Assembly (NCBI GenBank): GCA_035945995.1
Contig: DASYZR010000143.1
Span: forward strand, 1-64,000
Direction: 5' to 3'
Source of the DNA: a bacterium
GTDB lineage: Bacteria; Sysuimicrobiota; Sysuimicrobiia; Sysuimicrobiales; Segetimicrobiaceae
DNA length: 64,000 nucleotides
Below the pieces are notes generated by a model. The model was not told where the DNA came from and made no database searches. It worked only from the letters and a program-made list of their open reading frames with translations. Numbering within the stretch: position 1 is the first letter of the stretch; each line of letters opens with the position of its first letter. This document shows positions 1,455 to 3,386 of this stretch, piece by piece. Made by a program: the position numbers and the translations under genes.

Positions 1455-2291
1455 TCAGGAGCCTGATTGGACGTCAAGCCTATTCTCTCGTTGGAGCCGA
1501 CGTATCAATTCTCTGAGCGTTAGCACCTCCATGTCACCCACCTGCGCGCGGCGAATCAATTCGCGTAGTCTCCCATCATGTGTTACAAAGACATCGGCGG
1601 GCGATGCCGAGGCTGCGTGGTGAAGGTCGCCGAAATGCGCTTCCTCCAGTTCGCGATTACCGAACATTCTTGCATGCGCGAGCACCAATGGTACTACGAC
1701 ACCCAGCCGGATCGGCTTGAGCGCAAGCAAACCGGCCCAGCCGCGCCGTTCACACTGGACGAGGACACCCGCACGCTCGGCCATGATTCGCAGCCACTCA
1801 ACAGCATGAGCGTTCATGAACTGCTTGAAAGTGAGGCGGCGCGGCATCGCGGCCCGCCATCTCTCCATAGCATGGGTCCAGCCGTCCGTCCACGCGGTTC
1901 GCTGCTGCTTGTAGGTAAGCACCGTTCGTAGAAGAGCGCCGTAGTCGCGCGGCGTTGGTGATGTCAGGCGCGCCAGGTCGAGGTTTGTGGCGTACGGGCT
2001 TGCCGCAGCACCAGTCCCACGCGCGTACGCTCGGAAGCAGTCGTTGAGAAGGGGCACAACGTGGTTGATGATATGCGCCCGATCCGTGAGCCCGACGATC
2101 CATCGAATCTCGTCGAGCGCCTGCTTCTTGTTGTCCATAAGTAGCACTTCCGAAACCGTGACAATGCTCAACGACAGCGATAGATGACCATGCTTGGTGG
2201 CCATGCGCAACGTGGCTTCATCTTGGTCCATGGCACCCCGGGTGCGATGGCGGAGATGACTCAGCACGTTCCTGTCGAGGTAGACGATCAT
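1455..2291 (-). CDS. PIN-domain ribonuclease-like protein (278 aa)
   Basis: The protein opens 'MIVYLDRNVLSHL', the first acidic motif of PIN nucleases (Asp6). Near the C-terminus it has 'DLHHAASASPADVFVTHDGRL', containing the later conserved acidic residues in the order typical of PIN domains, with 'SEVLL' supplying the intervening Glu. PIN proteins are Mg-dependent single-strand RNases; many are VapC-type toxins that cut tRNA or rRNA. At 278 aa this one is twice a typical VapC, with a helical insert of unknown role in the middle. The ATG at 2291 lies 20 bp past the CCA end of the tRNA-like gene, and no other promoter is evident, so the two are probably co-transcribed. No antitoxin-like gene is adjacent. 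The PIN family assignment is solid; a toxin or tRNA-processing role is an inference. Confidence 0.75.
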   Translation of the reverse strand: MIVYLDRNVLSHLRHRTRGAMDQDEATLRMATKHGHLSLSLSIVTVSEVLLMDNKKQALDEIRWIVGLTDRAHIINHVVPLLNDCFRAYARGTGAAASPYATNLDLARLTSPTPRDYGALLRTVLTYKQQRTAWTDGWTHAMERWRAAMPRRLTFKQFMNAHAVEWLRIMAERAGVLVQCERRGWAGLLALKPIRLGVVVPLVLAHARMFGNRELEEAHFGDLHHAASASPADVFVTHDGRLRELIRRAQVGDMEVLTLRELIRRLQRENRLDVQSGS

Positions 2292-2311
2292 GGTCCATGG
2301 TGCATCCCTGC

Positions 2312-2427
2312 TGGTCCGGCTGCCGGGAGTCGAACCCGGACGCTGTTTCCAGCAGCGGCTTGTACCGCGCTCCTCGCGAGATGACCGCGATACAAGCCGC
2401 CGCGTCTGCCAGTTCCGCCACAGCCGG
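2312..2427 (-). tRNA. Class II tRNA-like gene with enlarged anticodon arm
   Basis: The RNA has a perfect 7-bp acceptor stem (CCGGCTG/CAGCCGG), discriminator A, encoded CCA, a Leu-type D arm (GCG...CGC around GAACTGGCAGA), a variable arm GCTG-GAAA-CAGC and a canonical T arm (CCGGG-TTCGACT-CCCGG). It is 113 nt before CCA, about 28 nt longer than a class II tRNA. The excess is all in the anticodon arm: GCGGC and GCCGC close a 36-nt loop instead of 7. This helix extends to 10 bp (GCGGCTTGTA/TACAAGCCGC), and inside it lies a second hairpin, TCGCG-GTCATCT-CGCGA, with a 5-bp stem and a 7-nt loop that presents U33-CAU. No splice of the outer loop yields a Leu anticodon. It could be a tRNA carrying an intron-like insert, a decoy or substrate of the adjacent PIN nuclease, or a decayed tRNA. 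Isotype is unassigned. Confidence 0.75.
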
Positions 2428-2447
2428 AAGGCCGGAGAGTTGGGAGC

Positions 2448-2477
2448 ATTATCCTCACTCGCCATCGACCTCGTCAA
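2448..2477 (-). promoter_or_regulatory. Sigma-70-type promoter of the tRNA-like/PIN cassette
   Basis: On the minus strand TTGACG (2477-2472) and GATAAT (2453-2448) are separated by 18 bp, a close match to the housekeeping consensus. The -10 ends 20 bp before the 5' end of the tRNA-like gene, leaving a short leader for RNase P to remove. The promoter is in the right place to drive both the RNA and the PIN gene behind it. Confidence 0.6.
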
Positions 2478-2516: not shown

Positions 2517-3026
2517 TTAGCGCGGCCCGTCCCCGTTCCCGTCCGGCCCGACCGTCGGCATGTACGACAGCATGCGCCGCTCCGCCGCCGCGCGCTCGCT
2601 GGCAAGGTACTCCTCGCGCCGTTCCTGGAGCCACTGCCTGATCCCGTCCCGCAGTTCCGGCGGCATCTCCTTCAGCGCGGCGGCCGCCTCGGGGGCGAAC
2701 GGCCCGCTGGGCTCGTCCGGCGGCTCGATGACGACCGGCGCCCGACCCCAACCTCTCGCGGCGAGCCACTCACCGGCCAACATGCGGTCACGTAGGCTGA
2801 TACGGCGTCGCTCCCCGATGGACACGGCGTCTCCGGCGAACACGGCGCGGTAGAATCGGACGAGGTCCTCGCCGTCGCCGACAGCCTGCCTGACCAGCGC
2901 CGCCAAACCTCTTGGTCTCCCCCCGCCGTTTCTGCGCGCGTCGAAGCCAGCGAAGAATGGTCGGCCGATCGGCAGTTCGGTCGCAGTTTTGTGCGGTGCG
3001 CCGCCGTCACCGTTCCGCTCAGTCAT
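2517..3026 (-). CDS. Phage-type small protein, DUF5681-like N-terminus (169 aa)
   Basis: The protein carries an Asn/Gly/Arg-rich stretch 'RRNGGGRPRGLAALVRQ' near residue 35, like the short DNA-binding-like DUF5681 motif found in prophage proteins, then a helical segment with 'LRDRMLAGEWLAARGWG'. Small terminase-associated phage proteins show a similar layout. The ATG at 3026 has a strong Shine-Dalgarno sequence (GGAGGT) 4 nt upstream. No terminase, portal or integrase gene is visible, so this is a phage or island remnant rather than a prophage. Its exact function is unknown. Confidence 0.55.
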   Translation of the reverse strand: MTERNGDGGAPHKTATELPIGRPFFAGFDARRNGGGRPRGLAALVRQAVGDGEDLVRFYRAVFAGDAVSIGERRRISLRDRMLAGEWLAARGWGRAPVVIEPPDEPSGPFAPEAAAALKEMPPELRDGIRQWLQERREEYLASERAAAERRMLSYMPTVGPDGNGDGPR

Positions 3027-3310: not shown

Positions 3311-3386
3311 TGGTGGGCCCTGAGGGACTCGAACCCCCGACGCCCGGGTTAAAAGCCCGGCGCTCTACCCGCTGAGCTAAGGGCCC
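3311..3386 (-). tRNA. tRNA-Lys (anticodon TTT)
   Basis: This is a standard 76-nt cloverleaf with encoded CCA. It has acceptor GGGCCCT/AGGGCCC, a D arm with AGCTCAGCGGGTAGAGC, anticodon stem CCGGG/CCCGG closing the loop CTTTTAA (anticodon TTT, Lys), T loop TTCGAGT and discriminator A. Its 3' end faces the accessory segment at 1-3310, as expected if this tRNA serves as an integration site. Confidence 0.97.

Follow-up and report, generated by a model that had tools for sequence, protein, structure and literature searches.

What does a tRNA-shaped RNA do directly in front of a gene for a putative PIN nuclease? The question is raised by one end of a 64,000-nucleotide stretch of bacterial DNA (the window), where a tRNA-like RNA gene with its own predicted promoter is followed by an open reading frame for a PIN-like protein, P0001. 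A sequence-only reading had taken promoter, RNA and PIN ribonuclease for one transcription unit at a tRNA integration site. The same kind of RNA occurs in 11 other bacteria and often adjoins PIN-type toxin genes, which raises the possibility of a hitherto unrecognised RNA that partners these toxins or acts as their decoy. Coordinates of the window features are collected in table 1.

Table 1. Features at the window locus.
Feature	Position	Strand	Remarks
sigma-70-like promoter TTGACG-18-GATAAT	2448..2477	(-)	10/12 match; 20 nt upstream of the tRNA-like RNA
tRNA-Leu-like RNA	2312..2427 (5' end 2427)	(-)	class II cloverleaf, encoded CCA
extended anticodon arm, in place of a decoding loop	2354..2401	(-)	CUUG...CAAG; retains U32 U33 and A37 A38
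variable arm of the tRNA-Leu-like RNA	2342..2353	(-)	GCUGGAAACAGC
A73 and encoded CCA of the tRNA-Leu-like RNA	2312..2315	(-)	from the sequence
PIN-like nuclease gene P0001, 278 aa	1455..2291	(-)	ATG 20 nt past the CCA of the RNA
169-aa ORF	2517..3026	(-)	between tRNA-Lys and the tRNA-like RNA
tRNA-Lys(TTT)	3311..3386	(-)	ARAGORN and Rfam

The promoter proposed for the RNA holds up. Over 64 kb, both strands included, just two sigma-70-like sites match at 10/12 positions or better, and this is one of them; it is also the top-scoring site of the first 5 kb, where four sites are found against 0.8 expected from shuffles. The close spacing reported between the CCA and the start of the 278-aa frame was likewise correct. 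The annotated interval 1455-2477 is itself a mechanical ORF reading that runs across the tRNA-like RNA. No terminator was found in the window between the RNA and the PIN-like gene; by eye, this gene has no well-spaced Shine-Dalgarno sequence, and no protein partner gene is evident for it. A single transcription unit fits the window and only the window: the arrangement is not conserved, and PIN genes are convergent with the RNA in four Acidobacteria loci. As to the integration site, the tRNA-Lys gene is confirmed but its use as a site is not. Neither the end of tRNA-Lys nor that of the tRNA-like RNA is repeated in att-like fashion within the 64-kb window, and the idea of an attachment site was dropped.

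In build, the RNA is a leucine tRNA up to its decoding loop. An acceptor stem of 7 bp (CCGGCUG/CAGCCGG) is followed by U8 G9 and the Leu-type D-arm GGCGGAACUGGCAGACGC; the T-arm, CCGGG-UUCGACU-CCCGG, leads to A73 and CCA. Class II cloverleaf, D-arm, T-arm and A73 are all as in a decoding tRNA-Leu. What is missing is the anticodon loop of 7 nt and, with it, a leucine anticodon; a hairpin takes the place of the loop, as in all 12 members of the class described below; in the window RNA this hairpin has 16 unbroken pairs and two short ones towards the tip. The minimum free energy of the whole RNA is -67.1 kcal/mol, which none of 200 shuffles equals (z -5.0). The RNA scores 120 bits with covariance model R2, and it is missed by default ARAGORN and by the Rfam tRNA model at its gathering score. 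With introns allowed, ARAGORN draws the identical cloverleaf and calls a tRNA-Val(TAC) with a 29-nt intron, the spliced product being a valine anticodon on a leucine body. Each of the five tRNA-Leu anticodons (TAG, TAA, CAG, CAA and GAG) is served by an ordinary gene in the genome of the window, so the tRNA-like RNA is not required for decoding. Also present in this genome, at G000:C24:4355-4439 (L386), is a class II tRNA whose body is serine-like and whose anticodon is UGC (alanine).

Relatives were sought by a pattern scan requiring a leucine D-arm and T-arm 50-80 nt apart, which returned 67 stretches from the genomes of 84,980 species. Folding set five RNAs built like that of the window (Chloroflexi L070, Acidobacteriaceae L076, Polyangiaceae L092, Chlorobaculum L100 and Acidobacteria L133) apart from tandem duplications and from other tRNAs or tRNA-like types. 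Covariance models made from these RNAs split the class (109-117 nt) from ordinary tRNA-Leu (82-86 nt). One of the 43 genomes of the window's phylum carries a class RNA, namely that of the window itself, and eight of 300 Acidobacteriaceae genomes do, two of them previously identified. No further members came from 41 Chloroflexi, 329 Myxococcota and 396 Acidobacteria genomes, few candidates per genome being scored in the larger searches. The class totals 12 members in 12 genomes (the window, Chloroflexi, Myxococcota, Chlorobi and Acidobacteria). Among viral contigs, the borderline L197 is the sole hairpin-type candidate. No published account of such an RNA was found in the open-licence literature.

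The structure of the RNA is under selection, as judged from the way its paired positions vary. In an alignment of the 12 sequences, which was fitted to the model and is hence biased towards structure, 94.6% of cells are paired, against 39-45% when the partners are slid. Both sides have changed in 32 of 39 pairs, including 11 of 11 in the outer hairpin. RNAalifold, run unconstrained on the same alignment, recovers the same fold, and the hairpins are also obtained by folding single sequences. On average the extended arms are 42% identical and the bodies 69%. Throughout the class, the segment replacing the anticodon loop is a hairpin of 34-44 nt of the form YUUN...NAAG; U33 and A37 are invariant (12/12), and U32, A38 and A73 are each kept in 11 of 12 members. 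A -10 hexamer matching at 5/6 positions or better lies within 40 nt upstream in eight of the 12, where 1.6 would be expected. The earlier description of a tRNA-like gene with an altered anticodon arm is borne out, by the fold statistics of the window RNA and by this 12-member structural class. A guide-like role of the hairpin was rejected, its longest matches elsewhere within each locus being just 8-12 nt.

Other rebuilt tRNAs were met alongside the class. At least 120 IMG/VR contigs (loci L138-L217, for example L215 and L138; Bacteroides loci L105 and L107 are similar) encode RNAs with the D-arm, T-arm and acceptor of tRNA-Leu (the last often AGTCAGG...CCTGACT), mostly without CCA. A varied, partly pseudoknot-like stretch of 48-78 nt replaces the anticodon arm in these, and several often share a tRNA cluster. 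Gammaproteobacterial bins contain leucine-bodied tRNAs with a long variable arm and non-leucine anticodon loops (by eye GGA, GGC and CGC), several per genome (L074, L080, L084, L096, L097, L098, L111, L113, L117 and L118). In two Planctomycetota genomes with the same flanking genes (L078 and L079), a gene resembling tRNA-Leu(CAA) has about 26 nt of hairpin inserted after U33, ahead of the anticodon. A Saprospiraceae locus (L124, 2159-2266) has a tRNA-Leu(CAA)-like gene, about 0.3 kb from an ordinary tRNA-Leu, with the palindrome CCTGCCTGC...GGCAGGCAGG in its anticodon arm, probably through insertion of a palindromic element. A pseudogene with such an insertion, excluded for the class by covariation, may apply to L124; the insertions of L078 and L079 are a separate case.

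The protein P0001 is a putative PIN nuclease, assigned by motif only. Four acidic residues (D6, E48, D222 and D239) stand in PIN order, and the corresponding regular expression matched none of 4000 shuffles; they speak for the earlier designation as a PIN ribonuclease. The lack of a PIN profile match speaks against it: P0001 matches no Pfam, NCBIfam, PADLOC or PHROGs family, comparison with PIN by hhalign is insignificant (probability 0.5%), and a home-made PIN HMM gives a weak signal (p 0.037 against shuffles). Searches of genome contigs, viral contigs and plasmids found no protein relatives apart from one C-terminal remnant of 61 aa, 65% identical, in a genome of the same family (L258 4023-4286, G003:C41). 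This remnant sits 88 bp downstream of tRNA-Ser(GCT). A 9-nt match to the D-arm beside it is at chance level, since 11% of random pieces do as well. The exact pair of window RNA and P0001 has no counterpart in 42 related genomes.

Across the class, five of 12 loci have a PIN-type gene at a distance of 2-20 bp from the RNA's 3' end, and the genes concerned belong to three PIN families. Convergent with the RNA in L304 and L308 is a gene of the DUF4411 family (PF14367), which we take to be PIN-like; it stops 3 and 14 bp short of the RNA, respectively, and an HTH-ImmA gene comes next. The convergent gene of L305 and L307 is a PIN gene of family PF01850, with gaps to the RNA of 2 and 14 bp, and the gene behind it encodes a partner of about 270 aa without family. 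Gene order in these four loci is that of a PIN gene and a protein partner in an operon. The fifth case is the window, where the PIN-like gene is codirectional and 20 bp away. Farther off are the PIN genes of L306 (PF01850, 1.3 kb) and L309 (PF16289 PIN_12, 1.1 kb). Between L304 and L308, identity is 58% for the DUF4411 proteins and 38% for the extended arms of the RNAs; between L305 and L307 it is 37% for the PIN proteins and 48% for the arms. Similarity between L304 and L308 starts at the RNA and stops after DUF4411 and HTH-ImmA, with nothing convincingly alike outside, which indicates that the RNA was inherited or moved as part of this unit.

Ordinary tRNA-Leu genes provide a control: among 118 ORFs neighbouring 48 such loci there is no PIN relative at a significant E-value, the search being BLAST and phmmer with six PIN sequences, which remote PINs could escape. 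A rough binomial estimate for four of 11 loci (window excluded) gives 5e-5 if 2% of neighbours are PIN genes and 0.02 if 10% are, and counting by independent families gives a weaker excess (0.01 and 0.23); these values apply to an adjacency noticed post hoc, to four Acidobacteria cases that amount to two families, and to a class of few (12) members. Because three PIN families are involved and two of them retain the RNA across divergence, the pairing is, as far as gene order tells, real and recurrent, and more general than could be seen from one locus. The sequence-only reading had held that a pairing without conservation would count against it; for the class the reverse was found, two PIN families keeping the RNA at the protein identities of 58% and 37% given above.

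The association has limits. DUF4411 is matched in 28 of 329 Acidobacteriaceae genomes, with the RNA at just two loci (L304 and L308), and the RNA lies beside two of four homologues of the L307 PIN. Since most DUF4411 genes and half of these homologues have none, both kinds of PIN can manage without it. The Acidobacteria PINs lying next to the RNA already have protein partners, five of the 12 RNA loci (L302, L303, L310, L311 and L312) have no PIN gene within reach, and orientation varies, being codirectional in the window and convergent in L304, L305, L307 and L308. In L372, a locus without the RNA, the PIN stop is directly followed by the block CTTGTTCTGAGGG, which lies beyond the RNA in L305 and L307; because stop and block are joined straight to each other there, the RNA unit can enter or leave a locus as one piece. 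At L305 and L307 a conserved block, ACTTGTTCTGRGGG, is found upstream of the RNA; in L372 it comes right after the PIN stop. The block ACTTGTTCTGAGGGGAT, upstream of two RNAs, was considered as a terminal inverted repeat and rejected, as there is no second copy.

By sequence, then, the class presents a Leu-type class II body, A73, a predicted promoter of its own, a covarying hairpin with U33 and A37, and, repeatedly, a 3' end within 2-20 bp of PIN-type genes, which belong to three families. Every step past an RNA gene beside a PIN gene is one that we infer. The account we tentatively prefer, at somewhat less than an even chance, is that the RNA is a tRNA-Leu mimic unable to decode, which accompanies PIN toxin modules on mobile segments and binds or buffers their tRNA-cutting nucleases. 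Bacterial LeuRS does not read the anticodon, so that the RNA may still be charged and a leucine scaffold permits the design of a decoy. The anticodon stem-loop of tRNAs is where VapC-type PIN toxins cut. One PIN toxin, VapC-mt11, cuts tRNA-Leu(CAG) and tRNA-Gln there and requires the stem-loop to be intact (PMC6459853). The proposed mechanism would run as follows. (i) The RNA would mature as tRNAs do (RNase P, 3' trimming), possibly be leucine-charged, and be incapable of decoding. (ii) PIN toxins that cut anticodon arms would bind it as a decoy that they cleave slowly or not at all: with a tRNA-Leu body and a loop sealed in a helix, the enzyme would be bound and offered no cut. (iii) The decoy would restrain the nuclease or set a threshold. 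(iv) If the RNA were diluted, destroyed or not made, the toxin would be freed to cut tRNAs, with leucine tRNA the likeliest target. (v) In Acidobacteria the RNA would work alongside the protein antitoxin; the window has no evident protein partner, and the nuclease could there be checked by the RNA alone. A bolder version, which we regard as doubtful, is that these RNAs form a new toxin-linked class of sealed-hairpin tRNA-Leu mimics restraining PIN nucleases, a tRNA-scaffold antitoxin acquired by unrelated modules across phyla.

The main rival, possible and on balance unlikely, is an autonomous tRNA-Leu mimic of mobile islands, to which PIN modules are neighbours through shared accessory islands. 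Such an RNA might serve as a decoy against host or phage tRNA-cutting enzymes, or as a LeuRS or EF-Tu sponge. The five loci without a PIN, which by eye have restriction- or methylase-like, FRG or unknown genes instead, agree with this; so do the majority of PIN genes that go without the RNA, the viral contigs (at least 120) in which no PIN link was seen for other anticodon-altered tRNA-Leu-like RNAs, and the remnant that the window PIN family left next to tRNA-Ser in G003. Loose island sharing, however, hardly explains a spacing of 2-20 bp in five of 12 loci, or a pair kept in two diverged families, with one shared segment that starts at the RNA.

It is improbable that the RNA gene is a recombination site, at which a mobile cassette inserts or which marks the end of one, in the way that elements insert at tRNA 3' ends. 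PIN genes do abut the RNA 3' end in either orientation, IS1595-like transposases lie near L304 and L307 (by eye), and L372 lacks the RNA unit between the PIN stop and the flanking block, which the RNA separates in L305 and L307. Yet the 3' end is not repeated in the window, the loci read have no integrase next to the RNA, and a mere site leaves aside the strong selection on the entire cloverleaf and extra hairpin, and the RNAs' own promoters.

Little probability is given to a regulator of PIN expression, whereby transcription from the RNA promoter would enter the PIN gene, as antisense where the two converge and as a leader in the window. The gaps (2-14 bp when convergent, 20 nt when codirectional) would suit such a role, as would the failure to find a terminator between the window RNA and PIN and the lack, by eye, of a well-spaced Shine-Dalgarno sequence for this PIN, but the full leucine tRNA body is left unexplained and PIN is absent from five loci. 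That the gene is or was an ordinary tRNA-Leu, its hairpin an intron or palindromic insertion, is very improbable: the body and the bases flanking the loop match tRNA-Leu and ARAGORN does call a 29-nt 'intron' giving tRNA-Val(TAC), but no common leucine anticodon remains, the pairing is kept across phyla, and a short continuous helix without bulge-helix-bulge, together with the complete ordinary tRNA-Leu set, led to rejection of an archaeal-type or group I intron.

Were the tRNA-Leu mimic to control the nuclease, a tRNA-shaped RNA antitoxin would join the known toxin-antitoxin types, and it would provide a direct handle on PIN toxin targets, because the decoy copies the target. Even without a role in control, a covarying family of non-decoding tRNA-Leu mimics is unexpected, and the window copy escapes standard tRNA annotation.

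Among known systems, the type III toxin-antitoxin modules (ToxIN, CptIN) are similar in that a small structured RNA gene adjoins an endoribonuclease toxin gene and the RNA is, here by proposal, the inhibitor. Type III antitoxin RNAs are tandem pseudoknot repeats that are made upstream of the toxin within a shared operon, and the toxin processes them. The class RNA differs from these as a tRNA-Leu mimic beside a PIN-type nuclease in variable orientation; in place of tandem repeats upstream in the same operon there is a single unit, convergent in four loci. With type II PIN modules (VapBC; HTH-ImmA, that is COG2856-Xre plus PIN, PMC2701414) the class has in common that four RNAs adjoin PIN genes with protein partners. 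COG2856-Xre and PIN are a predicted toxin-antitoxin pair, which the DUF4411 and HTH-ImmA genes of L304 and L308 fit (PMC2701414). The differences are that no RNA component is described for type II PIN modules and that the window PIN is without an evident partner. Ordinary tRNA-Leu (Rfam RF00005) shares the acceptor, D, variable and T arms, A73 and, in the window, an encoded CCA; unlike it, the class RNA has no anticodon loop and is additional to a full tRNA-Leu set. CreTA is comparable as a case of small RNAs affecting tRNA supply. CreT sequesters a rare tRNA by translation and, in contrast to the class RNA, is neither tRNA-shaped nor beside a nuclease. With tmRNA, finally, the class shares a tRNA-like body without a decoding loop, and in both cases the amino acid is one whose synthetase recognises its tRNA without reading the anticodon. 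tmRNA is of alanine type and holds an mRNA-like tag region, which the class RNA lacks. By this comparison, a tRNA would be free for rebuilding to other uses when its synthetase does not depend on the anticodon, as tmRNA was rebuilt from an alanine tRNA.
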